A stretch of 64,000 bases of DNA. Source: Geodermatophilus sp. DSM 44513. Its GTDB lineage: Bacteria; Actinomycetota; Actinomycetes; Mycobacteriales; Geodermatophilaceae. This document shows, piece by piece, positions 37,616 through 54,144 of the stretch. How positions within the stretch are numbered: the stretch's first letter is position 1; the number at the start of each line of letters is the position of its first letter. The notes under the pieces are model-generated. The model was given only the letters and a program-made list of their open reading frames with translations, was not told where the DNA came from and searched no databases. The position numbers were made by a program, and so were the translations under genes. The stretch spans positions 3,224,001 through 3,288,000 of the forward strand of contig NZ_CP135963.1 of NCBI RefSeq assembly GCF_032460525.1, read 5' to 3'.

Positions 37616-38895
37616 GTGATGCAGTCCGGTCGGGGCGGTGTGGCGGGGTGCCACTGCACCTGACCCGCTCGGCCGAGATCGAAAGGTGCTTCGAAGCCCG
37701 GTTGTGGCCGGAGCGCGACGATGGCCTGTTCACCGGGAAGCCGCTGCTCGTTGTGCCCTTGGCGTTGGAGGAGGCTGGCGACCGTGACCTTCGCGGCGAG
37801 GTCTCCCATGAGGTGGAGGTCGGGGCCTACGGCCGTCATTGGCCTGTGCGGGTCGCCGTCGCCGTATCCACGTTCCAGGGCGCGTTCGGGGTCCATTCGG
37901 CCTGTTCCGTAGAGATCCGCCCTGCGACAGAGGAGACAACCTTCGTCGGGTGCTCGACGAAGGCGTAGCACCTCCCCGAAGGCGCCGTCTTCGAGCACGC
38001 TGGTGAGGATGGCGTCTCGGCCTGCTCGGCGTGCGAGGTGGCTGACCACCCGACGAGGAGCGATGCCGTCGGCCGCGCACACGACGGCATCGACCTCTTG
38101 AAGCAACAGTCGCACGTGGTCCGCATCGCGTACCACGTCCTTGACGTGCGAGCGTGCGTCCAGACTGGGCCAGCGGGTGGTAAGCATGTCGCGAAGCGCA
38201 TCGGTCTTGAAGCGGCCAATGTCTCCCTCCCCCAGGACGTGGCGAACGGTGTTGTGCCAGAGCAGCCGGTCGGGATCGAGCAGGTCGAGCTGTCCGACTC
38301 CGTAACCAGCCAGGCTGCTCGCTACCTCGCCGCCGATGCTGCCGACCCCGACCACGAGTACGGCCCTGGCGCTCAGTGCCTCGACCGGCCAGTGCCCGAC
38401 GAGTTGGCCCAATCCGTACGCGCGGGGCTCGACAGCCAGATCGAATGGCTCGGCTCCCTCTCGGGTTACGCGCCAGGCGGCGAACTCGGGCAAGCGGTCC
38501 AAGTCCGGGTTGTCTGTGACACCCGGCGCGTGGGTGAGGACCAGAACGGCGTCATTGTGGGGGTGTGGCGCCGTGGGGATGAGGCGCCGGAACTGCTCCA
38601 GCGGCATGCAGTGGTCCGGCCGTGCCGACAGGCTGTAGTGCGCCCAGTGAGTTACGGCGTCCGCTCGATGCCAGGACGCTTCGTAGGCGCCCTCCTCAAC
38701 GCGCCTATGCCGTTCCTGACCAGACGCGGTGCGGACCGGGAGCACGGCGCCGGACTTTCCTGCTTGGTACGCAGTGATGACAAAGAGGTCGTCGGAGGGT
38801 GCCCGGACCATGCCGAGGGTTCCCCAGGCTCCGGCGCTGGCGCGGATCTTGTCGGCCGCCTCGGCGGGCACGATGACGAGCGACCGTCTCGTCAT
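37600..38895 (-). CDS. CBASS E1-like (ThiF-family) activating enzyme
   Basis: 431 residues. The C-terminal two thirds are a ThiF/E1 adenylation domain: the nucleotide loop VLVVGVGSIGGEVA (Gly183-Gly188), then DLLDPDRLLWHNTVRH, the D..N..R set that holds ATP. Two CxxC pairs (Cys320/Cys323, Cys425/Cys428) look like a structural zinc site. The first 165 residues are an unassigned N-terminal domain. It probably activates the C-terminal glycine of the CD-NTase. In most type II systems E1 and E2 are one protein (Cap2); here they are separate. The ATG overlaps the E2 stop by 4 nt. Confidence 0.88.
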   Translation of the reverse strand: MTRRSLVIVPAEAADKIRASAGAWGTLGMVRAPSDDLFVITAYQAGKSGAVLPVRTASGQERHRRVEEGAYEASWHRADAVTHWAHYSLSARPDHCMPLEQFRRLIPTAPHPHNDAVLVLTHAPGVTDNPDLDRLPEFAAWRVTREGAEPFDLAVEPRAYGLGQLVGHWPVEALSARAVLVVGVGSIGGEVASSLAGYGVGQLDLLDPDRLLWHNTVRHVLGEGDIGRFKTDALRDMLTTRWPSLDARSHVKDVVRDADHVRLLLQEVDAVVCAADGIAPRRVVSHLARRAGRDAILTSVLEDGAFGEVLRLRRAPDEGCLLCRRADLYGTGRMDPERALERGYGDGDPHRPMTAVGPDLHLMGDLAAKVTVASLLQRQGHNEQRLPGEQAIVALRPQPGFEAPFDLGRAGQVQWHPATPPRPDCITCSTP

Positions 38896-39476
38896 CGGCC
38901 ACCTCCCTCGTCGTCCTCCGGCTCGTCGTCGGTGGACGCCTCTGCCGGTTGCGCCTGAGCCAACGCCTCGGCTGCCTCCGCGATGAGATCGTCCAGGCTG
39001 TCGTCATAGACGATTCCGGCCATGGTCATGTCGGTGCGGACGCCGGACTTGAGCAGCGCGTACTCGATCCGCCATCCGGCGGCCTTGAGCAGTAGATCGA
39101 TCACGCTGCTGTTCGGATCCCAGTCGGCCTGCGTCTGGAACAGGCACAGCGCCCGATTGCCGAGGACGTGCCAGCGGGTCTGAGTCAACTCCTCGAACAG
39201 CGGTTCCGGGTCGAGCGGCAGGACGTACGGACTGACCATCGGATAGGCCGCCGAGTAGGACAGTTGGATCTTCAGGCCCGTCCCATGGAGGAGGTCTGAA
39301 AGGTCAGGGGGTTCTGGTCGGTTGAACGGCCACATGGGGAGGACACCGAGCCAGTGGCCTTGCCCTTCGAGGGTCAGCGTGAGATTAGGGAATCGTGCCT
39401 CGATCTCTCGCTGATCTCTTGCCAGGCGGGTGGGTTCGACTTGCCACCAGGCGATGGCTTGGGTCAGGTCGGTCAT
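38892..39476 (-). CDS. CBASS E2-like conjugating enzyme
   Basis: 194 residues. The pattern AYPMVSPYVLPLDP followed by HVLGNRALCLF and DWDPNSSVIDLLLKAAGW matches bacterial E2-fold proteins. Cys111 in ALCLF is the likely thioester cysteine. The tail after residue 165 is acidic and ends in EDDEGGGR. It should accept the CD-NTase from the E1 and pass it to a target. It overlaps the CD-NTase stop by 4 nt (ATGA) upstream and the E1 start downstream. Confidence 0.88.
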   Translation of the reverse strand: MTDLTQAIAWWQVEPTRLARDQREIEARFPNLTLTLEGQGHWLGVLPMWPFNRPEPPDLSDLLHGTGLKIQLSYSAAYPMVSPYVLPLDPEPLFEELTQTRWHVLGNRALCLFQTQADWDPNSSVIDLLLKAAGWRIEYALLKSGVRTDMTMAGIVYDDSLDDLIAEAAEALAQAQPAEASTDDEPEDDEGGGR

Positions 39477-40456
39477 CCCTGGTTGATGTCACGAACGGGC
39501 CGCTTGGGGATGTCGATCGGCACCCCACCTGGACCGCCCTCCGGCCCGCCGCCGCTACCGCCGCCGTTGGGTGGCTTGGGGAAGTCGGGGCCGAAGATGT
39601 CTCCCCAGAGCCGTACCGCGACATCGTGCTGATCCCAGCGCTCATGCTGGCGGGCGTTGGCTGCGATGTCCGCGGCTTCCTCTAGTGCGGTGCGCAGTGC
39701 GACCACGTCGAGGTCGGGCTGGATGGGCCCGCAAAGCCCCGCGGGGTCGCAGATGGGGTCATTGACGCGGACCGCGGCGGCGGCGAAGAACGCTGCGAGT
39801 GCGGCTGAACGCTCGCCGGTCTTGGGCAGGCACTCCAGGGCCAGGACCTCGATCAGCAGCGACTTGACGTGGGTGCCGGTGCGCCTGCGCCACCGCTTCA
39901 GCACGCGAACAAGCGGGGCGTAGATCCTGCCTTGGGCGTGGGCGTCGAGCGCCAGGTCGATGAGGTACCCGGGGTTCGTCCGGATCCAGCCATGGCTGTG
40001 GATCTCGGGAACGAGAAGGCTTCCATCGGGCTGACGGAGGGCGGGCATGGCATCGACCGTGAACGGGCTCTCCGCGTCAGGGTCGTCCAGGAAGCATTTG
40101 ACGGCGTGGTCGCCGGGGCGAGCCAGTCGGACCTGGTTCGGCTTGTAGGAGCCGTATGTGCCGAGCAGGCCCCTCACACGGTCGCGGACGTAGTCGAGCG
40201 CGTCCTCCGCGGAGTCGCCGGGCTGGCCCCACTCAGGCTTCGTCTCCGGCTTGTAGATCAGGATGGTGTCGACATCCTTGATCGGATCGTGCTGGGTGCC
40301 TCGGGCCAACGACCCTGAGGCCCGGACCAACTTGATGTCGCCCTCGGTGCCGAACGCGTCCTTGAACAGATCGCGCCGAGCCTTGGCTTCGGCAACCTGA
40401 GCGGGGGGCGCGTTGACCGTGGTCTGGTAGATGTCGAACGCGGTGTTGACCTTCAC
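39473..40456 (-). CDS. cdnA: CBASS cyclic-oligonucleotide synthase (CD-NTase)
   Basis: 327 residues from GTG 40456. The polymerase-beta-like site is intact: GS in RASGSLARGT (Gly48, Ser49), DVD in KDVDTILIY (Asp61, Asp63) and a third acid in FTVDAMPA (Asp135). The protein makes a cyclic di- or tri-nucleotide when a phage is sensed. The last 30 residues are a Gly/Pro-rich tail ending in VRDINQG, so the terminal residue is glycine, as needed for E1/E2 conjugation. GTG overlaps the stop of the TIR-SAVED gene (GTGA). The nucleotide product is unknown. Confidence 0.92.
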   Translation of the reverse strand: MKVNTAFDIYQTTVNAPPAQVAEAKARRDLFKDAFGTEGDIKLVRASGSLARGTQHDPIKDVDTILIYKPETKPEWGQPGDSAEDALDYVRDRVRGLLGTYGSYKPNQVRLARPGDHAVKCFLDDPDAESPFTVDAMPALRQPDGSLLVPEIHSHGWIRTNPGYLIDLALDAHAQGRIYAPLVRVLKRWRRRTGTHVKSLLIEVLALECLPKTGERSAALAAFFAAAAVRVNDPICDPAGLCGPIQPDLDVVALRTALEEAADIAANARQHERWDQHDVAVRLWGDIFGPDFPKPPNGGGSGGGPEGGPGGVPIDIPKRPVRDINQG

Positions 40457-41799
40457 GAGCCAGCCTTCATGTCGTCGTGGGCGAGCAGAACCTGCGTGAT
40501 CGGCCCGTCGGCGTTGGTGGGGTTGACGACCAGGCTGGGCACATACCGGGGGCGAGCGTCGGGATCGTTGGCGCGCTGCTCGCTGTCCCATTCGTAGACC
40601 GTGACGTTCAACGTGTTGCACAACCGCCCGAGTAGAACGGCGATCGGGAAGGGGCAGTGCAGCAGCAGGTGAAGGTCCGCGTGGTCGTTCTCCGCGACAA
40701 GGGCTCGGAGGCGGCCAGCCACCTCCTCGATGAGCCGAGCCGAGGATGCCGGGTCGAGGGTGCCTTCGATGGCTGGAGTGATCGTTTCCCATGCGTCGAA
40801 CTCGGCATGCCGTTCGTCGAGGAGACGGGCGTATGCGGCGTCCCCCGGGACGGGGACCAACCGGACATAGGCCAGGACGCGGCGCGCCTCACCCGTTGGC
40901 TTGATCGGGGATCGACCACGCTGAAGGATCTTGATGCTGGATGGAACTTCGACGGGTCGGCTGACGGTGCCGCAGGACCACAGGTCTCCGGCGGTTCCTT
41001 CGACGGTCACGGCGCCGACGAGAGTTGAGGGGAAGGCGCTCCCGAGCGCGAAGGCGACGCTGAGGTGCGCGCCGCCGGTGATCCGCAGACTGCGAGCACC
41101 TGTGCGTGCCAGCGCTTGTGGGAGCAGTGGCAGGGTCAAGTGGAGATCGCTGAGCCCGCCGGGGTCGGGAAGTCGACCGGCCTTGGGAGGTCGGATCCGG
41201 AGGCTGAGATCGGCCGCGTCTGGGCCGAAGGCATGGGGCACGGCACGTGTCTGAACGCTGAGGTGCAGCGAGCGCTCCGCCTCGCCGTTCCAACTCATGG
41301 CCAGACGCCCGGCGCGGAAGGTCAGCATCTCCCGGACGAGCCGAAGGAGTCCGGCGGGTTCATCGACGGGGTACTGCTTGATGCCGGAGAGCGTTCCCCG
41401 TGGCTTGCCAAGCAGTCGGTCCGGGGCGTTGTAGTCGGTGCGGCCGTCACCGTCGCGGACCAGGTTGGCGATGCCGAAGGCGAAATCAGCGTCGAAGTTG
41501 AGGTCCAGAAGTGCCGGGGCTTCGACGTTGCGGACGATGGGACTTGCGCCGATCTCGGGCGTCACGACGAGAACGCCCCCGGAGAGACCCGCTTCCAGGG
41601 CTTCTTCAAGTCGGTGCTCGGTGGTTCCTGGGGAGAGGTCGCTGTCGTCCTGCCAGACGGGGATACCGGCCGCGCGGAGCAGCCACGCTGTCCGCGTCGC
41701 CGCCTCCGCACCGTCGCTTTGCCGGTAGGAGACGAACACGGGACCGCCCCGTCGAACCTTCTGCTGCTGCGCTGTCACTCTGCGTCCCCCGTGGCTCAC
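40453..41799 (-). CDS. CBASS effector: TIR-SAVED fusion
   Basis: About 448 residues. The N-terminal 150 residues are a TIR domain (PVFVSYRQSDGAEAATRTAW, GIPVWQDDSDLSPG, VLVVTPE); Glu93 in NVEAPALL is the candidate NADase glutamate. The C-terminal half is a SAVED domain, with HLLLHCPFPIAVLLGRL and TVYEWDSE near the end. In known TIR-SAVED proteins cyclic trinucleotide binding to SAVED drives filament formation and NAD+ depletion, which kills the infected cell. It is first in the operon. GTG 41799 is preferred because GGTGGAG precedes it; ATG 41814 is an alternative. Confidence 0.9.
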   Translation of the reverse strand: MSHGGRRVTAQQQKVRRGGPVFVSYRQSDGAEAATRTAWLLRAAGIPVWQDDSDLSPGTTEHRLEEALEAGLSGGVLVVTPEIGASPIVRNVEAPALLDLNFDADFAFGIANLVRDGDGRTDYNAPDRLLGKPRGTLSGIKQYPVDEPAGLLRLVREMLTFRAGRLAMSWNGEAERSLHLSVQTRAVPHAFGPDAADLSLRIRPPKAGRLPDPGGLSDLHLTLPLLPQALARTGARSLRITGGAHLSVAFALGSAFPSTLVGAVTVEGTAGDLWSCGTVSRPVEVPSSIKILQRGRSPIKPTGEARRVLAYVRLVPVPGDAAYARLLDERHAEFDAWETITPAIEGTLDPASSARLIEEVAGRLRALVAENDHADLHLLLHCPFPIAVLLGRLCNTLNVTVYEWDSEQRANDPDARPRYVPSLVVNPTNADGPITQVLLAHDDMKAGS

Positions 41800-41916
41800 C
41801 GTTACTCCACCCATACGGTATGCGGCCCTACCGACAGAACCGGGAGCGTGGAGCGATCAGTCGACGGGTGACGGCTGCGCCTCCGGTTCTGCCGTCGTTT
41901 CGTTGGGGAGCGCTCG

Positions 41917-42249
41917 TCACCAGCCGAGCGGGTCGGGGCCGGTCCCGGGCGGGAGGGCGGCTCCACGAGCGACCGTCAGGGCGCGGAGCACGGTTGCGAG
42001 CCACTCGTTGCCCAAGCGTTCCGCGACGACGCCCAGGAGCGTGGGGTGCTCGTGGCTGGACCAGAGGCTGGCCGTGATCTCCAGCAGGAGGTGCTCTTTG
42101 GCCGAGAACGTCTTATCCGCCAGCAGTCCGGCGAAGTTCGCCCTCTGCTGGCTTTCATCGAGGTGCTTCCACACCCGACGGTCCAGCGGGAAGACTTCCT
42201 GGGCGACGAGCAGGACAGCAGCGAACCTCGGGTCGCGCCTCGAACCCAT
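41917..42249 (-). CDS. Hypothetical 110-residue cargo protein upstream of CBASS
   Basis: A mostly helical protein (FAAVLLVAQEVFPLDRRVWKH, then LLLEITASLWSSHEHPTLLG and NEWLATVLRALTVA). It has no signal peptide, no cysteine and no motif I recognise. The ATG at 42249 has GAGGGTGG before it. It lies about 118 nt upstream of the TIR-SAVED start on the same strand, with a SOS-type box 153 nt before its own start. It could be a CBASS accessory or a separate cargo gene. Confidence 0.6.
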   Translation of the reverse strand: MGSRRDPRFAAVLLVAQEVFPLDRRVWKHLDESQQRANFAGLLADKTFSAKEHLLLEITASLWSSHEHPTLLGVVAERLGNEWLATVLRALTVARGAALPPGTGPDPLGW

Positions 42250-42401
42250 GCCACCCTCTTTCGCCGGTGCTGGACGGTTGGCGAGTCATGGAGCGAACCG
42301 AGGCCGGATTGTCTGGAGCGGAGCCCCCGAGTCTCTAGCCCCGGACAGCGCAGATGCGACCAGTCGTCCCTTCGACCGCGGGCTGGTTGAGTCGCAGTCT
42401 A

Positions 42402-42417
42402 TTGAACACATGTTCGA
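42402..42417. promoter_or_regulatory. LexA (SOS) box upstream of 110-aa gene and CBASS
   Basis: TTGAACACATGTTCGA differs from the actinobacterial SOS consensus TCGAAC-N4-GTTCGA at one position. It lies between the stop of the NYN gene and the start of the 110-aa gene, so it is in a promoter region for leftward transcription. Confidence 0.7.
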
Positions 42418-42434
42418 ACACGGCGCCGACCGGG

Positions 42435-43022
42435 TCAACCCGCGAGGTGCTCATACATTCCGTCCGGTCGACTTGGGTCGTCCTCGCTCAGCGGCTCTCC
42501 GTCGGCACGCCAGTCCTCGCCAACGTGCGTGAGCACGGTGACGGATGCGGCGGCGGTGCGGAGCCTGCTGCTGACGTAGTTGCTGGTGAGCGTGGCCACA
42601 TGCACCTCGGCGAAGTTGGCGATGCGCGCGAAGGCGTGGTCGTTGGTGGCCACGATGAACCGTTCGACCCCGCGCCTTTTCAGCCGTCGAGCCCGCTTGA
42701 GGAGAACGCCGTCGGCGCCGTTGGGGTCCCGGGATCCGCAGAGCACTCCGTCGGCGCCGTTGGGGTCCCGGGATCCGCAGAGCACTCGGATGCCGTGCGC
42801 CCGCAGGATGTCTCCGGCCAGCCGGAACGCTCGCCAGTTCGCGGACGCGAGCATCGGCGCTCCGTCCGGAACGAGGCCGCAGAGCGCTTGAGCCAGGGCG
42901 TCCAGATCAGCCAGCGGCACGGAGACGTTGTCCAGGTCCCAAAGCAGTGCAGCCGACGCGGTGGGCGGCTGCGGCTTCGCGACCGCGGCTGCGGCGGCTG
43001 TGGACATGTACGGACGATGCAC
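42435..43022 (-). CDS. NYN/PIN-like nuclease-fold protein with internal duplication
   Basis: 195 residues. The NYN pattern is visible: LLWDLDNVSVP (Asp29, Asp31, Asn32), an ADG motif and FIVATNDHAFA (Asn127, Asp128). NYN proteins are metal-dependent RNases. The segment VLCGSRDPNGADG occurs twice in a row, from an exact 39-bp DNA duplication, so the ADG motif is doubled (Asp91 and Asp104). The insertion would extend a loop or disrupt the active site. The start is uncertain (GTG 43022 or ATG 43007). Confidence 0.75.
   Translation of the reverse strand: MHRPYMSTAAAAAVAKPQPPTASAALLWDLDNVSVPLADLDALAQALCGLVPDGAPMLASANWRAFRLAGDILRAHGIRVLCGSRDPNGADGVLCGSRDPNGADGVLLKRARRLKRRGVERFIVATNDHAFARIANFAEVHVATLTSNYVSSRLRTAAASVTVLTHVGEDWRADGEPLSEDDPSRPDGMYEHLAG
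42709..42786. repeat. Exact 39-bp tandem duplication inside the NYN gene
   Basis: Positions 42709-42747 and 42748-42786 are identical. The unit is 13 codons, so the frame is kept. Each copy contains CCCGGGATCC. The lack of any difference suggests a recent slippage or recombination event, or an assembly duplication. Confidence 0.9.
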
Positions 43023-43282
43023 CCGGCTGCCGACAGTTCTGGCTGGTCAGCCGCGCCTCGGCATGGGTGGTCGACGGCCAGCATTGAAACGTCGAGACCG
43101 CGCGGGTTCACGGTGGAGACGAGTCAGGCCGCTGTCGGAATGCCCAGGTCGACGAGGCTCCCGACGACGGAGGAGCGCGAGTTGCCAGTCGGGTGCATGG
43201 CCAGCGCGGCGACGGCGCAGCCGCGCCGGTTGTTCGATGTTGGACGAGCGCTACTCCCCACGCCTGGCCGTCCGGCGCGCGA
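43023..43282. other. Gap between NYN gene and nuclease gene
   Basis: About 260 bp without a convincing complete gene. On the minus strand a short stretch reads MHPTGNSRSSVVGSLVDLG before a stop at about 43130, with good codon use, which could be the end of a lost cargo gene. Confidence 0.35.
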
Positions 43283-44281
43283 CTATCCCGCTCGCCGGGG
43301 GCGCAGGGCTCGATCAGCCCACAACTCGACCTCGCGGAGCGCGTTGTACTCGGCGAGCACCTTTCCCACCTCGTGGGCGCCACCGCCAGGCGGCCCCGCC
43401 TCCAGCCAGCCTCCACCGGCGAGGAACTCCTCGACTCGGCTTCCTGTGGGCTCTGGTCTGTTCGAGATGGGATAGGCGATGCGGGACTCCCAGACCCCAG
43501 TGCCCCGGAACACCGTCTCTGGCTCCTTGCGCGTGTCGCACAGGGTGCCGTCGAAGCGGTCGACCCGGACGGGGCAGATCCAGCGGCTATGGAAGCCCTG
43601 GACCTTGTAGTCCTGAATGGCGCCCATCCAGTCGAATCGAATGAGATACTCGACGCCTGCCATCGGCTCGCCCTGCTGGAGGTGGGTCACATACATGCCG
43701 AATCGGCGACGGAGCCTCTCGGCTCGCTGCCGGGTCGGCTCGTAGGGGTTCTCCAGTTCGAAGACCAGTTCCACGTCGAGGTCGGGGCGTTCGCCGAAGA
43801 GGAACATGCCAGCCTGACGGATCTCGTCGTCGGACATGGCGGCGATCTCGCGGTCCCGCTCGGCAAGGAGCCCCGGCATGGTCTTCTCGTAGGCCAGCCA
43901 GCGCTGGACGTGCCAATCGAGGATGGCCTGCTTCTCGTTGGCGTTCAGGTGGGTGTCGTCGATACGCAGAAGCGGAAGCCCTGCGGACAGGCAGATCCTG
44001 TTCTTCCGGATGTCCCGGCGACGCTGCTGAGCCGTCTGGTGGGTCGGGCCGTCGAACTCGAAGGCCCAAAGCGCCTTGCGGTGGCTCTCCTTATGGATGG
44101 TCAGATCGAAGTGGGCGTCGCGCAGAAACCGGATGTCTTCGCGATCGTCGTCCTCATCCGGCGAAATCACGTCCTCCAGACGCGTATGGGCGTTCACCCA
44201 GTACGGGGTCCCTTCCAGAGCCCGACCCAGGATTCTTCGCGCCCGCGCTTCGGAGGAGTTCTCGAAGTCCTTCAGTTGCAC
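43283..44281 (-). CDS. DUF2726-like PD-(D/E)XK nuclease
   Basis: About 332 residues from GTG 44281, which follows AAGGGA at 8 nt. The nuclease-like core lies in residues 1-130: Glu11, HFDL (Asp59), then WAFEFDGPTH (Glu75, Asp77, His81), Lys93 in IRKNRICL and GLPLLRIDD. This matches the DUF2726/Vsr-like arrangement of a type II restriction fold. The remaining 200 residues have no family I recognise but include RWICPVRVDRFDGTLCD. It is a plausible defence or DNA-repair cargo gene. The frame is open further upstream to 44353. Confidence 0.72.
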   Translation of the reverse strand: MQLKDFENSSEARARRILGRALEGTPYWVNAHTRLEDVISPDEDDDREDIRFLRDAHFDLTIHKESHRKALWAFEFDGPTHQTAQQRRRDIRKNRICLSAGLPLLRIDDTHLNANEKQAILDWHVQRWLAYEKTMPGLLAERDREIAAMSDDEIRQAGMFLFGERPDLDVELVFELENPYEPTRQRAERLRRRFGMYVTHLQQGEPMAGVEYLIRFDWMGAIQDYKVQGFHSRWICPVRVDRFDGTLCDTRKEPETVFRGTGVWESRIAYPISNRPEPTGSRVEEFLAGGGWLEAGPPGGGAHEVGKVLAEYNALREVELWADRALRPRRAG

Positions 44282-44479
44282 GGCGCCGATCCCTTCAGTC
44301 CCCGCCCCGGGCGATCCCGGCCTGCCACGGATGCTGCCAGTCGCGGCCGACAAACCCGGACCGAATCAGCACCCACGCGCCATGGCCCGTCGTCTGCATC
44401 CGCCGACGCTCCGCGGGGTAATCAGTTACTCGGACGGCCGCCTCGCCGGACGGCGAGGCGGCCATCCCAAGTCGAGCAG

Positions 44480-44830
44480 TCAGGCGGTTGCGGGCTCCAG
44501 TTCGGCGAGGAGGACCTGGACGCGGCGGTCGATCTCGTCGCGGATCGGGCGGACCTCTTCGACGGGCTTGCCCGCGGGGCCGTCCAACTGCCAGTCCAGG
44601 TATCGCTTGCCGGGGAAGATCGGGCAGGCGTCGCCGCAGCCCATGGTGATGACCACGTCGGAGGACTCGATAGCCTCGGTGGTCAGCGGCTTGGGGTACT
44701 CCCGGGATAGGTCCAGGACGAGTTCGTCCATGACCTGCACGACCGCCGGGTTGATCGAGTCGGCGGGCGCGGATCCTGCGGAGAGGACCTGCACCCGCCC
44801 TTGATCCCCGCCGATGTCGCCGCCGAGGGT
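44480..44830 (-). pseudogene. arsC: arsC remnant, 5' end missing
   Basis: The last 105 residues of an arsenate reductase of the low-molecular-weight phosphatase fold are present: VLSAGSAPADSINP, then VITMGCGDACPIFPGKRYLDW and VRPIRDEIDRRVQVLLAEL. The matching frame continues upstream to 44830, where TGA stops it. The first about 30 codons, with the CX5R phosphate loop and its catalytic cysteine, are absent. It cannot be active. It points to an earlier arsenic-resistance cargo. Confidence 0.85.
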
Positions 44831-44881
44831 TCAGGCCGGGCCAAGGCATCCGCCTGCTGCTGAAGGCAGCAGTGCCGCAAA

Positions 44882-44912
44882 GGGTCCGGCTCAGGTTCAC
44901 TGAGCCGGACCC
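44882..44912 (-). terminator. Terminator hairpin
   Basis: A perfect 13-bp stem GGGTCCGGCTCAG / CTGAGCCGGACCC with a 5-nt loop lies 65 nt after the stop of the 177-aa gene. On the minus strand it is followed by TTTGC. It probably ends that gene. Confidence 0.75.
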
Positions 44913-44976
44913 TCGCCACGGGTCGGACGACCGCCAGCCGCGACGCTTCGACCGAGGGTGAGACGTGCGGCGGCGC

Positions 44977-45510
44977 CTATTCCTGAGGCGCGGTAGACCG
45001 CGGTTGGCGATCCCGCTCGGGCATCCGCTGGTGGCTGGAGACGGGTCGTAGCCCGTAGTCGACGGCGAGGCTGAGGTCCTTGGCGACCAGCATGAGGTCG
45101 TCGATCCAACTGCCGACCGGCGGGTTGGGCATCCGATTGAACTCAGCGGTCGCACGTCCGAGCGCGGCCAGGAGCCGGTCGGTCTTGCCCACGATGGTGT
45201 CCACGACCTCGGCCCGGACCCCCACGACCGGCGGCCGGTCCTGGCCACGGCGGGACTGCTGAATCTGGGTGTTGCGCTCGGTGCGGTGCTGGAGACAGAA
45301 CGCGGCGCGGGCGTGGGTGGAGATCGTGGTGTCGCAGCACCGGCACCAGTTCGTGCCATCAGACGCACGGCGCCCGCGCACGTCACCGTCGGGGAAGAGG
45401 ACGGGCACGTCCTCCATCGCACAGGCGGGCTCTTCCGGCCGTGAGGCGGCGGAGGTGACCCGATCGAGGGGAACACCCTCCGGCAGCGGCACGAGCGGCC
45501 TCCCTGTCAT
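44977..45510 (-). CDS. Hypothetical 177-residue protein with Cys/His cluster
   Basis: I recognise no family. Residues 55-75 carry WCRCCDTTISTHARAAFCLQ followed by H, a C-x-C-C...C-x2-H cluster that may bind zinc. The C-terminal half is helical and the tail charged. The ATG at 45510 has no ribosome-binding site, and an inverted-repeat operator begins one base before it, so the message may be leaderless. It is divergent from tnsA and could be a regulator for the transposition operon; this is inference from position. Confidence 0.6.
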   Translation of the reverse strand: MTGRPLVPLPEGVPLDRVTSAASRPEEPACAMEDVPVLFPDGDVRGRRASDGTNWCRCCDTTISTHARAAFCLQHRTERNTQIQQSRRGQDRPPVVGVRAEVVDTIVGKTDRLLAALGRATAEFNRMPNPPVGSWIDDLMLVAKDLSLAVDYGLRPVSSHQRMPERDRQPRSTAPQE

Positions 45511-45511
45511 T

Positions 45512-45548
45512 CGTGACGGTCACGAGAGCATCCGTGACCGTCACGGAT
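45512..45548. promoter_or_regulatory. Paired palindromic operators
   Basis: CGTGACGGTCACG (45512-45524) and ATCCGTGACCGTCACGGAT (45530-45548) are perfect dyads around a central base. Their centres are 21 bp apart, two turns of the helix. They would let two dimers bind the same face over the start of the 177-aa gene. Confidence 0.7.
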
Positions 45549-45824
45549 GCGGCGGCGTATCCCGCCGGACGGACCGTCAATGCAGCCCTGACCTGCGGCG
45601 ATGCACTCCGGAGCCGAACCGTCCTTGACGCAGGGTATGCGCGGTCCTCGTCATTCGTGACGAGCCCACGCCGCGAGCCGTCCGGCTTCGGTGATCGTGG
45701 AAGCGTCGGCCGACCCCCGGCTCGGGTGCCGCGAAGGCTCAACCCGACGGCCTATCCCGCCGTTGACCTGCTGGTTCCCGGTCGACGTTGTGTCGGTGGC
45801 CCGTTCTAGCGTCTAGCGAGTTGA

Positions 45825-45840
45825 TCGAACACACGTTCGA
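45825..45840. promoter_or_regulatory. LexA (SOS) box at tnsA
   Basis: TCGAACACACGTTCGA matches the actinobacterial LexA consensus TCGAAC-N4-GTTCGA exactly. It is followed at once by AAGGAG (45841-45846), the tnsA ribosome-binding site. Bound LexA would block the tnsABC operon. Confidence 0.85.
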
Positions 45841-45853
45841 AAGGAGAGACCAC

Positions 45854-46810
45854 GTGACTTCGGCGCCCCTTGTCGACGCCCTTCCGTTCAGGACCGGGCT
45901 GTCGCTACGCGATCTTCAGCGCACACCGGTCGACGACCTGGAAACCCTGCTCGGTGTCCGGTTGCTGCCGCCGGTGCTCCGCTACGACCCTGACCGGGAC
46001 CGGCCGTCCCTGTCCTCTCACGACGCGGCCTGGCTGGACCTCTGCGAGACGACTACGGCTCACCATCCGCACGCCCCAGCGCTGGCGACCGGCTGGCCGG
46101 ACCGCTGGTCGGTCACCTACCGCAACGACGAAGGCGAGCACGCCGAGAGCGTTCGCGAGGTCGACCCGGTCGACCTCATCGACGCCGACCCGATGCGCAA
46201 CTCCACCTGGCACGCCCACAGCCGCGCCCGCGCCGGGCTGCACCACATGTCCTCCACCGACCGGCTGCATTGGCACGAGTCGCTGTTCGAGCGGGAACTG
46301 CTGGTCGCTCTCGACTTCGACAAGGGCCTCGATGACGTGACCAGCCAGCCGTTCACCCTGACCTGGCACGACGGCACCGCATGGAAGAAGCACACGCCGG
46401 ACTTCGCGGCGGTCATCCACGGCGAGATGTGGATCATCAACGTCCGGCCCGCCCCACTCGTCAAGCCCCAACTGCTCGCCAACGCCGCAGCCACCCGCGC
46501 CGTCTGCGCGCTGCGGGGCTGGCAGGAAGCCCTCGTCGTCGGCTACGCCCAGCCCGCGCTCACCGTGCTCAAGACCATCGGCGCCGCACGCCGGACAGCC
46601 GACCCGTACACGCTCGGCGACCAGATGCTCGACCTGCTCGACCAGCAGGGACCGACCCGGTTCGGTGACCTCGTCGCCGCCACCGAGGCGCCCTTGCTGG
46701 CCCGGGCAGTGCTTCAGCGGCTGATCTGGGACCGCGAGGCCACCGTCGACCTCAATCGCCTGCTCACCGACGAGACCACGGTCTCCCTGACGCCAGAGGT
46801 GGACGCGTGA
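45854..46810 (+). CDS. tnsA: TnsA-like heteromeric transposase endonuclease subunit
   Basis: 318 residues. TnsA cuts the 5' ends of the element and, with TnsB, makes transposition cut-and-paste. The start is GTG 45854 because AAGGAG lies 8 nt upstream; the frame is open further up but without homology. The PD-(D/E)XK core is near residues 140-200: FERELLVALDF (acidic residues), HTPDFAAV (Asp183) and WIINVRPAP. In E. coli TnsA the last motif is QxK; here it is N-x-R (Arg198). It is translationally coupled to tnsB by a GTGA overlap. Confidence 0.88.
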   Translation: MTSAPLVDALPFRTGLSLRDLQRTPVDDLETLLGVRLLPPVLRYDPDRDRPSLSSHDAAWLDLCETTTAHHPHAPALATGWPDRWSVTYRNDEGEHAESVREVDPVDLIDADPMRNSTWHAHSRARAGLHHMSSTDRLHWHESLFERELLVALDFDKGLDDVTSQPFTLTWHDGTAWKKHTPDFAAVIHGEMWIINVRPAPLVKPQLLANAAATRAVCALRGWQEALVVGYAQPALTVLKTIGAARRTADPYTLGDQMLDLLDQQGPTRFGDLVAATEAPLLARAVLQRLIWDREATVDLNRLLTDETTVSLTPEVDA

Positions 46811-49134
46811 GCGTCCGGCTGGCCCGCGGCATCCGGGTAAGCGTCGATGCCCGCGAGTGGCTGATCACCCAGGTGAACCACGAGAAGGGCTTCCTGCGTC
46901 TCGCCGACGACCAAGGGGAGCAGACCACCATGGGCCTCGACGAGTTCGTCAGTCACCCACACGTCGAGGAGGTCACCACCAAAACCGCCGCGACGGTCAT
47001 GGACGCGGCGGTGGCGCGGCTGGACGCCCGAGCGAAGGAGGTCCTCGCCAAGCGGATCGCCCACGTCTACGAGGCCGAGACCGGCTACCGCTCCGGCACG
47101 CCGGACGTGGCACTGCCGCACGAACCGCGCCCGGAGTACGACCCGGCCACGACCACGCTCATGCAGCGCCGGGAGGCCAAGGCCCGCGAGTTGGACAACG
47201 AGCACGCCGCCGACGCCGGAACCAAGATGTCGGTCGCGACGATCCGCCGGATCTCCAAGTCGCTGAACTCCGGCTGCGCGCTCGACGGCGCGGTTGACCG
47301 GCGGCACGTGCGCCGCTCACCCGGCCGCATCTCCATCAACGAGCAGGTCGCCGCCGCGTGCGAAGAGGTGTTCGAGAAGACCCGCGAGGAATCCAACCGC
47401 ACCCACGCCGCCCGCTACCTGCTGGTCCAGCAGTACCTGCGGGAGGTGTTCGACTACAGCAAGGACGACGAGCGGATCCCGTGCGAGAAGACGATCCGTC
47501 GCTGGTTCCAGGATCGCTTCATCCCGAGCGAGTTGAACGGCAAGGCTCGCACCCGCCGCAGCGCCACCTCAGCACCGTCTGGCGGCTTCTCCCGCGCCAA
47601 CCCCACCCGGCCCGGCGAACTGGTCTGCATCGACACGTGCAGCCTCGACGTGCTGCTGGAAGGCACCGCGTACGCGGGCGCAATCCGCGGCGTCATGGTC
47701 ATGGCCATCGACTGGTACTCCCGCTCGATCGTCGCCATCCGCGTACTGGAGGGCTCCGAGCAGGCCATCGACGTGACCTTCGTCCTGCGCGAGATCGGTC
47801 GGCCCAAGCCAATGCGGCCCGGCTGGGGCGATGAGAACCGCTGGCCGTTCGTCGGCCTGCCCGAGCAGATCCTCACCGACACCTTCGGCGGCACGGCGTA
47901 CTCCGGGATGCCGTTCGTCAACGCCGAGGCCGTGGTCACCGACCACGGCAACACCTACAAGGCGCACATCAACGTGGCCGCCGCGACCCAGCAGGGCATC
48001 GACATCCTGCCCGCCCGGGTCCGCACTGGCTCGGACAAGCAGGTCGTCGAGCGCGCGTTCGGCTCGTTCCGGACGATGCTGCTCCAGTACCTGTCCGGCT
48101 ACCGCGGCACCGACGCCTCCGAGCGCGGCTCCAACGTGGACGCTCAGGTCAAGTACGACGCCCAGGACATCGAGGACCTTGCGTCCTGGTGGGCGGTGCG
48201 CATCTGGCAGAACCACGAGTTGTCCGATGCCCGGCCCGACTGGTGCCCCGAGGGCACGTTCAGCCCGAACACCCTCTACGAGTACGGGCTCGCCCAGACC
48301 GGCGTGGCGCTGCGGGCGATGAGCAGCAACGACTACTACGCGCTGCTGCCCACGGTGCACGTCCGGGTCCGCAGCCGCGGCGTGAAGGTCCGCGGCCTGT
48401 ACTACGACGGTGAAGCCCTCAACGACCCCACCGTGCGCAACGAGCCATCCCCGTACGGCGGTCGCCACAAGAACTTGTGGACCGTCCGGTATGACCAGCG
48501 GGATCTGCGGCGGGTGTTCTTCCTTGACCGGAACGGCGTCTACCAGCCGCTGACCTGGGTGGGCGCGAGTCGGCACACCCCGTGCTTCAACGACCGGCAC
48601 GCCGCCGCCCTCACCTCACTGCGGACCAAGCGCGGCATCAGCGTGCTGGACCAGGAGGCTCTGGCCGAGATCCTGCTCACCGAGATCCTCGCGGTGCACG
48701 AGCCGGTCGCTGACTGGCCGACCCTGTCCGGCACGGCTCGCAAGGCGATCCGGGACCGCAGCCGCCTTCAGCGGCAGGAGCAGATGGTCGAGCGGGACCA
48801 GGCCGCCTCCGGGGTGGTCCGGTTCGCCGACTCCTTCGACGACTCCGACGAACCGGAAGAGTCGCTGAAGCCGACGCGGCAGCCAGCACGGCCGGTCTCG
48901 CCGGTCACCGCGCTGGACACCGCCCGCGCCCGCAAGAACGCCACCCAGGTCCCGCCGGAAGAGCAGGACGGCGTGCAGGCCGCACCTCGCCTCGGCAGCG
49001 GCATGAAGGCGATGTTCGGGTTCGACGCCGCCGCCCTTCAGGCCGCCCGCGATGCCGCCCAGAACGCGGCCGAGACCGGCAGCGACCCCAATGACGATCC
49101 GAGGGTGACCGACGAAGGAGACGAGGAAGCGTGA
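46807..49134 (+). CDS. tnsB: TnsB-like DDE transposase
   Basis: 775 residues, rve/Mu-type transposase that recognises the 19-bp end repeats and joins 3' ends to the target. The catalytic triad is Asp276 (ELVCIDTCSLD), Asp379 (AVVTDHGNTYKAH) and Glu415 (KQVVERAFGSF). The last two are 35 residues apart, a DD(35)E spacing. The first 240 residues contain the helix-turn-helix end-binding domains. The last 130 residues are acidic and charged and probably contact TnsC. GTG start and 4-nt overlaps on both sides. Confidence 0.93.
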   Translation: MSVRLARGIRVSVDAREWLITQVNHEKGFLRLADDQGEQTTMGLDEFVSHPHVEEVTTKTAATVMDAAVARLDARAKEVLAKRIAHVYEAETGYRSGTPDVALPHEPRPEYDPATTTLMQRREAKARELDNEHAADAGTKMSVATIRRISKSLNSGCALDGAVDRRHVRRSPGRISINEQVAAACEEVFEKTREESNRTHAARYLLVQQYLREVFDYSKDDERIPCEKTIRRWFQDRFIPSELNGKARTRRSATSAPSGGFSRANPTRPGELVCIDTCSLDVLLEGTAYAGAIRGVMVMAIDWYSRSIVAIRVLEGSEQAIDVTFVLREIGRPKPMRPGWGDENRWPFVGLPEQILTDTFGGTAYSGMPFVNAEAVVTDHGNTYKAHINVAAATQQGIDILPARVRTGSDKQVVERAFGSFRTMLLQYLSGYRGTDASERGSNVDAQVKYDAQDIEDLASWWAVRIWQNHELSDARPDWCPEGTFSPNTLYEYGLAQTGVALRAMSSNDYYALLPTVHVRVRSRGVKVRGLYYDGEALNDPTVRNEPSPYGGRHKNLWTVRYDQRDLRRVFFLDRNGVYQPLTWVGASRHTPCFNDRHAAALTSLRTKRGISVLDQEALAEILLTEILAVHEPVADWPTLSGTARKAIRDRSRLQRQEQMVERDQAASGVVRFADSFDDSDEPEESLKPTRQPARPVSPVTALDTARARKNATQVPPEEQDGVQAAPRLGSGMKAMFGFDAAALQAARDAAQNAAETGSDPNDDPRVTDEGDEEA

Positions 49135-50339
49135 CCAGGACCGTGCCCGCACCGCCCGACGAGTGGTCCGCCGACCCGCCGCCCCGCCAGGAGATCACGA
49201 CCCTGGACGGCTGGCAGCACTACGTCGAGCACCGCGAGGACTATCGGGCGCCCGCGCTGTTGACTCGGGCCGACTACGACCGGCTGCCCGAGGGGCACCG
49301 GGGCCTGTACGACATGGCCCGCGAGACGGCGATCGGGAACCTGCCCCGCCACGAGACCCCGATGGGCCAGGCTCTGATGAACAAGATCGCGCTCACCCTG
49401 CGGGCGAACACCGTCAACACCGCGCCAGGCGTGCGCCCAGGCATGTTCGTATCCGCGGACGCCGGACTTGGGAAGAGCACGCTCGTCTGCGAGATCGCCG
49501 CCAGGTTCGACGAGGCCCAGCGCCAGCGGGCGCAGTTCTTTCCCAGCATCGCCGGAAACCGCGACCGCTGGGTTCCGGTCGCGTGGCTGAGCATCGGTTC
49601 GGAGGTGACGATCAACGGCTTGTGCCGCGACCTTCTCGGCTTCTACGGCGAGGTCCCGCCCAAGCGCGCCTACGGGCCGGAACTCACCGCCCGCGTCCGG
49701 AAGGTCATGGTCGACTGCGGAACGCTCCTGCTGGTCCTCGACGACATCACCCGGCTAAAGATGCATCGGGAGGCCGACCAGAACGCCGCCGACTTCATTC
49801 GCTCGTTGATGGAGACCGGTGCCACCATCCTCGGGATCGGCGTCGACATCCCAGGCTCCGGCCTGCTCAACGAGGGTCAGGCGAGCACGCGGCGCCGCCG
49901 TCTCCTCACGCAGACCCGTGCGCGGTTCACCGTCCACAGCCTGGGCTCCTTCACCGACGAGACCGGCGACGCCTACACCCGGTGGCTTTCCCACCTGAAG
50001 GCCGTCGAGGAAGACCTGCCGCTGCTGGACAAGGCCCCCGGCATGCTCACCGACGGCGACACCCCGGCCTACCTGCTGCGTCGCACCCGCGGCGTCGTCG
50101 GAACCCTGACTCGCCTAATGACCGAGGCATCCCTCGCGGTCCTCGGTCAGCGCCCCACCGGGCCTGGCACCGGCGAGTACCTCACCCGCGAGATCCTCGA
50201 CTACATCACTCTCGATGACGCAGCCGAGAATCAGGGCCTGGCCGAACCGACCGAACTGAGCCCGCGGGCGAGCGCCCGCCGGACTCGCCCCCGTAACGGC
50301 GCCTTCAACGGGAGGCGCGCCCGCGACGGTGCCGCTTGA
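49131..50339 (+). CDS. tnsC: TnsC-like AAA+ ATPase
   Basis: 402 residues. TnsC forms an ATP-dependent filament on DNA and links the target selector to the transposase. Walker A is SADAGLGKSTLV (residues 108-119), and Walker B is LLLVLDDITRL (Asp204, Asp205). A sensor-like ILGIGVDIPGSG follows. The C-terminal 40 residues are Arg-rich. It overlaps tnsB by GTGA and tniQ by TTGA. Confidence 0.92.
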   Translation: MTRTVPAPPDEWSADPPPRQEITTLDGWQHYVEHREDYRAPALLTRADYDRLPEGHRGLYDMARETAIGNLPRHETPMGQALMNKIALTLRANTVNTAPGVRPGMFVSADAGLGKSTLVCEIAARFDEAQRQRAQFFPSIAGNRDRWVPVAWLSIGSEVTINGLCRDLLGFYGEVPPKRAYGPELTARVRKVMVDCGTLLLVLDDITRLKMHREADQNAADFIRSLMETGATILGIGVDIPGSGLLNEGQASTRRRRLLTQTRARFTVHSLGSFTDETGDAYTRWLSHLKAVEEDLPLLDKAPGMLTDGDTPAYLLRRTRGVVGTLTRLMTEASLAVLGQRPTGPGTGEYLTREILDYITLDDAAENQGLAEPTELSPRASARRTRPRNGAFNGRRARDGAA

Positions 50340-50466
50340 CGGCCGTTGTGACGGACGCGGCGCCGCGTCCGCTGCCGCGCAGCCTCGCCCCGCACCCAAG
50401 CGAGACCCTCAGCGGTTATCTGCTCAACCTCGCGCACCGCCTCGGCTATCGGCCCATCGACCTAGC
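50336..50466 (+). pseudogene. tniQ: tniQ/tnsD 5' fragment, interrupted
   Basis: The gene starts at TTG 50336, whose TTGA overlaps the tnsC stop. The typical TniQ start is present: RSLAPHPSETLSGYLLNLAH. After codon 43 (ending PIDLA) an IS481-family element is inserted. The frame then reads into the IS and stops at 50518. Confidence 0.85.
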
Positions 50467-51585
50467 TGTACTGACCAGAGACGTTGGTCGAGGGCATGTG
50501 ATCACGGGATCTGACTGACTGATCTTGTGGAGGGAGGACCTCCGGACGTGGAGTGGAGCTGCTGAAGGCACCCACCCACACAAACCCGGAGGTCCTCGTG
50601 GCCCACGCTAATGCCGCTCTGACTCCACGCCAGCGTCTGCGCCTGGCCCGCGCGGTGGTGGAGGACGACTGGACGGTCTCCTACGCCGCCGCGGTGTTCC
50701 AGGTCGCCTATCCGACGGCGAAGCGCTGGGTGGAGCGCTACCGCCAGGCCGGGCCGGCCGGCATGGCCGACCGCAGCTCCCGCCCGCACCGCAGCCCCCG
50801 GCGCACGCCGCGACCGCTGGTCCGGCGGATCGTGCACCTGCGCTGGCGGCACCGGCTCGGGCCGGTGGAGATCGGCGCCCGGCTGCGGGTACCGGCCTCC
50901 ACGGTCTACGCGGTGTTGCGCCGCTGCCGGCTCAACCGCCTGTCCCACATCGACCGGCGCACCGGCGAGCGCGTCCGCCGCTACGAGCACGAGCGGCCCG
51001 GCTCGCTACTGCACGTCGACGTCAAGAAGCTGGGCAACATCCCCGACGGCGGCGGCTGGCGCTACGTCGGCCGCGCCCAGGGCGGCAAGAACCGGGCAGC
51101 AACCCCGGGCAAGCCCCGCAGCAAGCGCCGCGAACCGCTGCTGGGCACCGCGTTCGTGCACACCGTGCTCGACGACCACAGCCGGGTCGCCTACGCCGAG
51201 ATCCACGACGACGAGACCGCCGCCACCGCCATCGGCGTGCTGCGCCGCGCGGTGGCCTGGTTCGCCGCCCGCGCCGTCACCGCCGAGCGGGTGCTGAGCG
51301 ACAACGGCTCGGCCTACCGCTCCCACGCCTGGCGCGACGCCTGCCTCGAGCTCGGCATCACGCCCAAGCGGACCCGGCCCTACCGGCCACAGACCAACGG
51401 CAAGATCGAACGCTTCCACCGCACCATGGCCGACGGCTGGGCCTTCCGCCGGATGTTCCTCAGCGAACTCGCCCGCCGCCAGGCCCTGCCCGGCTGGCTG
51501 CACGAGTACAACCATCACCGGCCCCACACCGCGATCGGACGCCGCCCACCGATCACGCGACTGACCAACCTGTCTGGGCAGTACA
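50467..51585 (+). mobile_element. IS481-family insertion sequence in tniQ
   Basis: The 1,119-bp element has terminal inverted repeats TGTACTGACCAGAGACGTTG (left) and TGTACTGCCCAGACAGGTTG (right, complement), matching at 20 of 23 positions counted. It is flanked by CCTAGC at 50461-50466 and 51586-51591, a 6-bp target duplication. IS plus one duplication copy is 1,125 bp, a multiple of three. It carries one transposase gene. Confidence 0.93.
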
Positions 51586-51590
51586 CCTAG
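50598..51590 (+). CDS. IS481-family transposase
   Basis: About 330 residues from GTG 50598 (GGAGG at 6 nt); an earlier GTG at 50553 is possible. An N-terminal helix-turn-helix (SYAAAVFQVAYPTAKRWVER) precedes an rve core with HVDVKKLG, VLSDNGSAYRSH and GKIERFHRTM as the DDE residues. The frame leaves the right terminal repeat, and its TAG stop (51588-51590) is supplied by the target duplication. It looks intact. Confidence 0.93.
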   Translation: MAHANAALTPRQRLRLARAVVEDDWTVSYAAAVFQVAYPTAKRWVERYRQAGPAGMADRSSRPHRSPRRTPRPLVRRIVHLRWRHRLGPVEIGARLRVPASTVYAVLRRCRLNRLSHIDRRTGERVRRYEHERPGSLLHVDVKKLGNIPDGGGWRYVGRAQGGKNRAATPGKPRSKRREPLLGTAFVHTVLDDHSRVAYAEIHDDETAATAIGVLRRAVAWFAARAVTAERVLSDNGSAYRSHAWRDACLELGITPKRTRPYRPQTNGKIERFHRTMADGWAFRRMFLSELARRQALPGWLHEYNHHRPHTAIGRRPPITRLTNLSGQYT

Positions 51591-51591
51591 C

Positions 51592-53335
51592 GCACCGCAT
51601 CGGCCTGGAGCACACCGCCACCGCCGGAAGCATCGACACCACCTTCGGCGTCGCCCTCCCTACCGACATCGCCGGTCGGTTCGCGCACGCCTGCAACCTG
51701 ACCGCCACCGAGGCAGTCGGGCTGACGCTGGCCCGGTGGGACGGGCTGCTGTTCGACATGACCACACCGGGAAAGGCAGCCCGCACGGCGCAGGGCAACG
51801 GCTGGTTCGTCCCCACCCTCACTCGCGCCTGCCCGCAATGCCTCGCCGACGTGGATCCACAGGCCCCGGACCGCGTTACCTGGCAGGCCGCCTGGAAGAC
51901 GCCGTGGGCGGTGGCCTGCACCCGCCACGGCATCCTGCTGGAGGACACCTGCACCGGCTGCGGTCAACCGTTCGGCGCTACTGGCACCCGGATCCCCAGC
52001 CTGATACCGAACGCGGCGTTCGAACCGCTGCACCCCGCCGCCTGCCGCGCCCGCCCGACCGGCTCAGGGACCCTCTGCGGACATCGGATCGATCACCTGG
52101 ACGCGCGTACCGCCCCGCACCTGGTTGTGGCGCTCCAGGAGCGTCTGGACGGGCTCCTCGACGGCAGCCGCACCCAGGCATGCAGCCTCGGTGTCCCGGT
52201 CAGCGCCGCTCAGTACCTCCGCGACCTCCGCGCGATCGCCGTCCTCCTTCAACTCGCCGACCACCGCCGACCACTGGCGCCCCTGCCGAGTGAGTTCACC
52301 GAGGCGCTCGCCGCCCACCTGGACGCCCGCAACGAGCGCCGTGCCACCCGCCGCGAGAACGACCGCACCGACCGGACCTGGACCGAACCGCCCACCAGCA
52401 CCCACGTGCTTGCATCGCTGCTGCACCAGGCCGCGGCCGTCCTGGACCTGCCAGCACCCGAAGACGCCCGCGGGCTGCTGCCACCACTGGTCGAGGCCGC
52501 CAACGAGCGAGAGCGTCTCGCCTGGGGCCGCATCCGCTCCGCCGCCCAACCCTCCGACGGACTCTTCCGCTACTTCGCGCCCAACCGGTCGGGCACCTTC
52601 AGCGTGCACATGCTGCGCGCGGCCTGCACCGCCACGCTGACGATCACCAGCGACCAGGCCCCGGCCTACCTGGAGCCCGAGCGCTACGAGCGGTGGTTCG
52701 CCACCTTCGACCCCTCCGAGCAACGCAACATCCGCCGGGCCGTCCCGATCGCCATCACCCAACTCGTCGAAGACTGCGACCTCGACACCGCCGCCGACCG
52801 GCTCGGCACCCCACGGGTCAGTGCCCAAGCCGCCCTCATCCGCGCCGGACGGGCCTGCAAGCGCACCGACCGGGACGACGAGTTCCGCAGGCTGATCGGC
52901 CTGGCCGCCGAAGACCTTCAGGCCCACCCAATCGACTACGGCCACCGCCGCCGCCACCTCAACGCCGCCTGGAACATCCCCGAGCCCGACTGGCAGCACC
53001 TGCGCGAGGCCATGCTTGCCGCCCGCGTCGCCCGCAAGGACACTCCCTGGGAACAGCGCCGCACCGATCTGCGCATCTGGCTGTGGAGCGAGATCACCAG
53101 CGGCGACCCCGCCCTCGCGCCCATGATCCAAACCGAGTCGGCAGCCCGCCGCTCGACCGACCTCGCCATCTCCTCCTACAGCACCCTGCGCCGTCGGGCG
53201 GTCCCCGCCCTGGAACAGATCGTGACCAAGTACGCCGAAGGACTCGCCGCGAGCATCGACGCCCACCGTCCTGATCGGGACAGGGCGGCGACCGACCTCC
53301 CGTTCAAGCGCAGCCTGGACAGCCCAGCAGCCTGA
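51592..53335 (+). pseudogene. tniQ: tniQ/tnsD 3' part, separated from its start
   Basis: The reading frame that follows the IS joins the 5' fragment exactly (DLA to HRIGLEHTATAG). It contains the TniQ zinc-finger layout: CPQCLADVD, then AVACTRHGILLEDTC and CTGCGQPF. A long C-terminal region follows, about 450 residues with helical repeats and a possible helix-turn-helix (LVEDCDLDTAADRLGTPRVS). Rejoined, the protein has about 624 residues, in the TnsD rather than the short TniQ range. It is probably a target-site selector. An internal ATG at 51758 could still give a truncated product. Confidence 0.85.
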
Positions 53336-53361
53336 CTCGGATTAGCGGCGCCGGGCGGCGG

Positions 53362-54144
53362 TCATGGGCAGACGCTCCGCGCGTCCAGCAGGTTGAACCC
53401 GTTCGCCAGGAGACCGTGGGCGCATAGGTAGGGGTTGGCCAACGCCTCGATGCTGCCGCCCGCCTCGAACGGCGCCACTCCGTCGCTGTCCGGGCCACCG
53501 GCCTGCCGAGTCCCAGGCTGACCGAAGACAGACCACGCAAGTCCATGCGCAGCCGCCGACCCGCGACGCCACTCAACCTTGGCGGCCAACGCCATCTCTG
53601 GCCGTCCCCACGTTGCATCGGCCGCCAGTCCAATGGTTCTGGTGGCCTCGAACGCCGACTTCTGTTCGTCCGCCGCCCGCTTCTGAGCGAGTTCGGCGAG
53701 ACGCTGCTCAACGAGCCTCTTCACGCCTTCGGTGTCAGCGTCCGGACCTGGAGGCAGGTCCTGTAGATCCCGGAGAAACTTCCGGAACTCGTCGTACACG
53801 TGCCGCGTCAGCGTCCGAGCGTTGCTTATCCGGTCTTCACGCTCGTCCGGTGCCAGTATCCAGACCACCTGGGCCGCTGCGAGCGTTGCGGTTCGGATCA
53901 GCGACGCCTGCGCGAACGGAAACAACTGCCGAGCGTCGATGTGAACCCGGACCGCCTGGAGGTGGTCTCGCGCAGCAGCCAGCCCTGACACCGCGACCTG
54001 ACTCATCGGGAAGACCGGCCAATCCCGGTCATCCTCGGCGAGGTCGCTCCCCGGCTCCGGGAGATGCACGTCGGCAAGGCGCTGTCCCCACAGGTCCAGA
54101 TCCCCGAAAGTCTCACGAACCTGGTCTAGGGGACTACCGCTCAC
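53362..54144 (-). CDS. Hypothetical 260-residue cargo protein
   Basis: Starts at GTG 54144 and converges on tniQ. The protein is mostly helical (LIRTATLAAAQVVWILAPDERED and a charged middle with KRLVEQRLAELAQKR). Near residue 195 it has the segment EWRRGSAAAHGLAWSVFG, which is seen in uncharacterised actinobacterial proteins. I do not recognise a named family. It is the gene nearest the right transposon end. Confidence 0.6.
   Translation of the reverse strand: MSGSPLDQVRETFGDLDLWGQRLADVHLPEPGSDLAEDDRDWPVFPMSQVAVSGLAAARDHLQAVRVHIDARQLFPFAQASLIRTATLAAAQVVWILAPDEREDRISNARTLTRHVYDEFRKFLRDLQDLPPGPDADTEGVKRLVEQRLAELAQKRAADEQKSAFEATRTIGLAADATWGRPEMALAAKVEWRRGSAAAHGLAWSVFGQPGTRQAGGPDSDGVAPFEAGGSIEALANPYLCAHGLLANGFNLLDARSVCP

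Follow-up and report, generated by a model that had tools for sequence, protein, structure and literature searches.

A host-type LexA box conserved ahead of tnsA in a clade of Tn7-like elements

Tn7 serves as the model of target-selected transposition under tight control. A precedent for host LexA control of a transposase gene is Tn5, an unrelated cut-and-paste transposon without a target selector, whose transposase gene was reportedly found by Kuan and Tessman in 1991 to be repressed by LexA. The SOS-controlled integrons and ICEs named in the accessible part of PMC12452197 show the same tie of mobility to the host SOS response, but they use other recombination or conjugation systems and not TnsABC. 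According to the same part of that study, expression of tnsB and cas8 in the I-F3 CAST of Shewanella ANA-3 did not change significantly after mitomycin C treatment; this is said to match the behaviour of Tn7, for which Shi et al. 2008 is cited, and both Tn7 and the I-F3 CAST are described there as not SOS-regulated. I-F3 CASTs, which share the Tn7-like core and the carriage of cargo with the element reported here, differ from it in being regulated by Xre-family proteins (PMC11406308, available portion). In the available portion of PMC8649781, CBASS is given among the cargo of Tn7-like elements, Actinobacteria included, and the transposons of an actinobacteria-dominated Tn7-like clade are described as experimentally uncharacterized. 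In a word search of PMC8649781 and PMC10293859, neither SOS nor LexA came up in the accessible text, and that of PMC5101192 holds nothing on Tn7. No report of LexA control of a Tn7-like element was found in the titles and abstract starts of the open-access literature, which agrees with the initial annotation of the locus, where such control was thought undescribed. Since Tn7 and the I-F3 CAST are stated not to be SOS-regulated (PMC12452197), a LexA-controlled tnsABC would be a new regulatory variant.

The window, a 64,000-nt stretch of the genome of Geodermatophilus sp. DSM 44513, contains an element with the same components as Tn7 and other Tn7-like elements: a TnsA-like endonuclease, a TnsB transposase, an AAA+ TnsC and TniQ, together with repeat arrays at the ends, a 5-bp duplication and insertion just past a conserved gene. 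Its termini, TGTGACTGGACTC on the left and GAGTCCAGTCACA on the right, are flanked on both sides by CGTCA on the plus strand (36905-36909 and 54416-54420), which delimits an element of 17.5 kb at 36910-54415. The left end (36910-37059) carries three TnsB-type repeats TGCTCAACTGTGGTGTCC[AG] on the minus strand (36983-37001, 37015-37033 and 37041-37059), and the right end (54186-54415) carries TnsB-type repeats on the plus strand (54186-54360) in the same layout as in two related loci, L023 of Blastococcus CCUG 61487 and L024 of Blastococcus TF02-8. End repeats like TGCTCAACTGTGRTGTCCA gave eight matches and none in 100 shuffles, and these inverted arrays are putative TnsB sites. Different from Tn7, the site is whiG and not glmS, tnsA lies in the middle of the element, the operon points to the target-gene end and a LexA box stands at its head.

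The right copy of the duplication includes the stop codon of the whiG sigma factor gene (54418-55272, minus strand; NF004935 WhiG, 390.4 bits against an equivalog cut-off of 343). All four Geodermatophilaceae members of the clade described below are inserted at whiG, the right ends of L023, L024 and L025 (B. saxobsidens 67B17) being at the same place. No whiG match was found near the element in the Nocardioidaceae genome G843 (L163), so the whiG site is not common to the whole clade. Within the genus, the whiG stretch was matched in 26 of 26 genomes and tnsB only in that of DSM 44513 (G000). When the joined flanks were compared with the genus genomes, the match left of the junction reached 44 bases in G013 (L125) and 41 bases in G024 (L146), and at most 24 bases in the remaining ones, whose left sides have diverged too far for a judgement. 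With left-side matches this short, an empty whiG site in the genus is only weakly shown.

The genes tnsA, tnsB and tnsC form one operon on the plus strand. tnsA (45854-46810) has a GTG start and an intact frame, and matches NF033179 (TnsA_like_Actin) with 103.4 bits, just under the cut-off of 110. It is followed by an intact tnsB (46807-49134), in which D276, D379 and E415, likely the DDE triad, are invariant in 30 aligned relatives, and by an intact tnsC (49131-50339) encoding a TniB-like AAA+ ATPase (PF05621, 24.4 bits, cut-off 22.4). A target selector of the TniQ/TnsD type is also present, interrupted in the window by an IS481-family insertion (50466-51586, plus strand) between two CTAG copies (50462-50465 and 51587-51590). 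The transposase frame of this insertion (50553-51590) scores 331.7 bits with NF033577 (cut-off 224). The insertion cuts off an N-terminal piece of tniQ (50336-50518, plus strand) from a C-terminal piece (51591-53335, with the frame listed from 51758, plus strand; PF06527, 31.7 bits, cut-off 27), the latter being 74-77% identical to tniQ of L024 and L023. Both of these loci are continuous at the IS481 site, and L023, L024 and L025 have both tniQ parts within a single open frame. Four overlapping tns genes had been described initially, and the 4-nt overlaps are indeed present, as GTGA between tnsA and tnsB (46807-46810) and between tnsB and tnsC (49131-49134), and as TTGA between tnsC and tniQ (ATGA in L023, L024 and L025); tniQ itself is not intact. 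The operon behind the box thus consists of intact tnsA, tnsB and tnsC and a disrupted tniQ, and the window copy may be unable to choose its usual target.

As first annotated, the LexA (SOS) box TCGAACACACGTTCGA at 45825-45840 has no mismatch to TCGAAC-N4-GTTCGA and abuts the ribosome-binding site AAGGAG, which begins at 45841 (45841-45846, plus strand). The GTG of tnsA at 45854 starts 13 nt past the end of the box. The corresponding spacing is 15, 8 and 17 nt in L023, L024 and L025, respectively, the tnsA start of L025 (GTG at 7138) being our own reading. The box therefore falls in three different frames relative to tnsA among these four loci, where protein coding does not explain it, and coding conservation was rejected as its cause for the window, L023, L024 and L025. 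This rejection does not extend to L102 and L104, two further members of the clade: an open frame upstream of tnsA, with a similar reading in both, runs through the box, so that the tnsA start, and hence the promoter position of the box, is uncertain in both. A -10-like hexamer, TAGCGT (45807-45812, plus strand), ends 12 nt upstream of the box in the window. A strict promoter scanner found no sigma-70 promoter in 45480-45900. By a loose script, TANNNT hexamers end 8-12 nt upstream of the box in six of the seven clade loci, and no -10-like hexamer of this form precedes the box in the seventh, L026; TTGACA in L104 and TTGACG in L102 were found upstream of their hexamers. All these -10-like hexamers are weak. 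A LexA dimer seated on the box would be expected to cover the transcription start.

A total of six perfect TCGAAC-N4-GTTCGA sites, the box at tnsA included, occur in the 4,628,844-bp genome, against about 0.06 expected from the mononucleotide composition of the window; the reversed pattern, used as a control, has no perfect site in the whole genome. With at most one mismatch the counts are 30 for the motif and 5 for the control, 24 of the 30 having exactly one mismatch. The box is far beyond chance. One perfect site lies about 400 nt upstream of the stretch of lexA matched by LexA_DNA_bind and is followed by two weaker boxes with one and two mismatches. Another has a DinB-family (IMS) gene on one side and a DUF222/HNH gene on the other, and yet another (L001) is about 0.9 kb ahead of a PHP-domain stretch. 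The remaining two perfect sites are L002 and L003. Pfam searches with 10 ORFs near the host boxes left six without a match, some of them perhaps taken in the wrong frame. A box with one mismatch precedes recA in all seven hosts of the clade, 156-193 nt upstream of the matched RecA domain. The best box of the lexA promoter has no mismatch in G000 and G035 and one in G038, these being the three of the seven hosts that were scored (G041, G712, G843 and G845 were left out). The 16-bp palindrome near the tnsA start also fits the ChIP-seq motif of Streptomyces venezuelae LexA, tCGAAC-N4-GNNCGa, whose tabulated sites lie mostly at -14 to -199 from start codons, with one at +91 (PMC9380542, accessible portion). 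Judged by sequence, the box at tnsA is the host's own SOS motif.

A palindrome of this kind might also be bound by a repressor encoded on the element, or by TnsB in an autoregulatory circuit, and merely resemble a LexA box. Self-regulating Tn7-like elements exist, such as the I-F3 CASTs with their Xre-family regulators (PMC11406308, available portion), and a divergent ORF and other conserved palindromes are found just upstream of the operon. Those palindromes, however, are unrelated to the box, and the only LexA_DNA_bind match of the genome is outside the element. The box agrees fully with the host sites at lexA and at the DinB/HNH locus and almost fully with those at recA, whereas the end repeats, TGCTCAACTGTGRTGTCCA, have a different sequence, on which ground the box was rejected as a TnsB site. 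We consider recognition by an element protein improbable, and retain host LexA as the predicted ligand of the box.

Relatives of TnsB were collected by a protein search, which returned TnsB proteins of metagenomic origin at 77-85% identity, by a scan of genome contigs (four loci) and by genome searches by taxon. Genomes with a TnsB match numbered 1 of 26 in the genus, 5 of 112 in the family, 30 of 298 in the order and 55 of 394 in the class, and 14 of 341 in the family of the Nocardioides host. A perfect box is present in all seven distinct loci of the TnsB clade, 890-1060 nt upstream of the projected start of tnsB and hence near that of tnsA. These loci are the window, L023, L024, L025, L026 from a Nocardioides MAG, L102 in G843, and L104 in G845, where tnsB is cut by the contig end. 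Loss of the box across related elements was looked for, and the initial proposal was not refuted by this check, as the operator is kept in the orthologous promoters of 7/7 clade loci, with the tnsA start uncertain in two. The box thus characterizes every sampled member of the clade. Some clade copies, or their assemblies, look damaged: in L026 both tnsA and tnsB are broken into two frames, and one in-frame TGA interrupts tnsB of G843.

Outside the clade, a perfect box was found in none of 51 distinct upstream regions of TnsB-matching loci; the best box has one mismatch in one region, two in another and three to five in the other 49. Forty-three of these regions belong to TnsB matches of at least 100 bits, and the other eight to weaker matches, in which the projected tnsB start is doubtful. 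The comparison omitted 19 of the 83 loci with a TnsB row, those with fewer than 200 bases upstream, and identical regions were counted once. The one-mismatch box, that of L105, was rejected as an operator, since it is located within an open frame some 400 nt ahead of that of tnsA. One scan of viral contigs yielded no further clade members. Among phages, three records have a TnsB match at 29-30% identity, and 190 plasmid records have TnsB matches, all below 60% identity; in four of the latter (L159-L162) the best box match within -300 to +60 of tnsA has three to five mismatches.

In a TnsB tree of 30 rows the seven box-bearing loci form one group with a support of 100/100 and long branches inside, adjoined under midpoint rooting by the box-less L028 and L029. 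The single box-bearing group and the retention of the box in it suggest that the operator probably arose a single time and has since been maintained by selection. Because the clade goes back to one common ancestor, the seven loci do not count as seven independent events, and a functionless chance palindrome could have been passed on by descent alone. Besides the grouping of all seven carriers, such an origin would fit the other conserved blocks that the four Geodermatophilaceae loci share 150-330 bp upstream, which mean that the box is not the sole stretch kept there. It does not fit the ungapped alignment on the box, in which the 12 fixed bases are identical in 7/7 loci although TnsB identity within the clade is as low as 43%, and in which no column is common to all seven loci in the 60 bases before or the 40 bases after the box. 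Nor was a perfect copy of any of 179 permuted palindromes, with the composition of the half-site kept, found in any of the seven clade regions. Inheritance of a meaningless palindrome is thus very unlikely, and we favor a LexA operator maintained for its function.

An exact host LexA site before the transposition genes, found also in all close relatives examined, argues that the element probably wakes on host DNA damage. We assign a probability of about 0.87 to the reading that host LexA represses tnsABC through the box and that DNA damage derepresses it. The sequence shows the box and its agreement with the SOS boxes of the host, the retention of the box throughout the clade, the overlapping genes and the ends of the element; from these we infer a promoter position for the box and a course leading from LexA binding and repression through damage induction to transposition. 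In the undamaged cell, a LexA dimer would occupy the short stretch between the -10 region and the tnsA ribosome-binding site, abutting the latter, and would block transcription of the overlapping tnsA-tnsB-tnsC(-tniQ) genes. Upon DNA damage, RecA filaments would trigger the self-cleavage of LexA and the operon would be derepressed. Excision by TnsA and TnsB at the ends with the repeats would follow, and TnsC together with TniQ would guide the element into its target, which is whiG here. The original proposal of host LexA control over the whole transposition machinery is strongly supported by comparison as far as LexA is concerned and falls short at tniQ, which is split by IS481. Since TniQ is broken in the window copy, damage may induce TnsABC in DSM 44513 without productive targeting.

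LexA might also bind the box with SOS barely affecting mobility, if TniQ or TnsC were limiting, and the window copy might simply be stranded by IS481. This would be compatible with LexA repression of tnsABC and is in line with the interrupted tniQ of the window and with the lack of a TnsB match in all 25 other genomes of the genus searched. Against it, L023, L024 and L025 combine a perfect box with an uninterrupted tniQ frame, and we regard so weak an effect of SOS as rather unlikely. If LexA does control tnsABC, mitomycin C is predicted to turn on these genes in the Blastococcus strains, and a clade that strictly retains a LexA operator would represent a second regulatory solution beside that of Tn7.

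The cargo of the element includes a CBASS system on the minus strand (37600-41814), identified by PADLOC, Pfam and NCBIfam. It comprises an E1-type gene (37600-38895), an E2 gene (38892-39476), the cyclase (39473-40792) and a TIR-SAVED gene (40453-41814), i.e., a CD-NTase and a SAVED effector with E1/E2 ancillary genes. A second LexA-like box, TTGAACACATGTTCGA (42402-42417), with one mismatch, lies about 150 nt upstream of a minus-strand ORF of 110 aa (41917-42249) that precedes the CBASS genes and ends about 100 nt before the TIR-SAVED start. From the 24 one-mismatch sites of the genome, about 0.09 would be expected per 17.5 kb. As a LexA operator of the CBASS-side genes this second box is suggestive. 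A promoter search at the box found none, the 110-aa ORF has no plasmid relative, and one (L158) of the two plasmid records with CBASS relatives lacks a box at zero or one mismatch. The initial annotation had linked LexA control directly to mobility under DNA damage or phage attack, a link that is not supported as written. A wider proposal, which we put forward tentatively and with the odds somewhat against it, is that this Tn7-like lineage has entered the host SOS regulon twice, through LexA operators on tnsABC(-tniQ) and, at least here, on the CBASS-carrying unit. Damage, including that caused by phage or incoming DNA, might then switch on escape and defence together, and DNA damage would be tied to the spread of defence cargo.

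A search of 36000-55500 against Rfam gave nothing at gathering score. Conserved palindromic repeats of the type CATTCGTGACNGTCACGAATG (45508-45549) are located upstream of the divergent ORF (44977-45510, minus strand), and a further copy of their half-site is found near 45651. These palindromes, of the form CATTCGTGAC-N-GTCACGAATG, are conserved in the window and in L023, L024 and L025, and are perhaps the operator of another regulator. On the cargo side, an ORF with a weak NYN match contains a tandem 39-nt duplication (42702-42779), the two copies of which are 95% identical.
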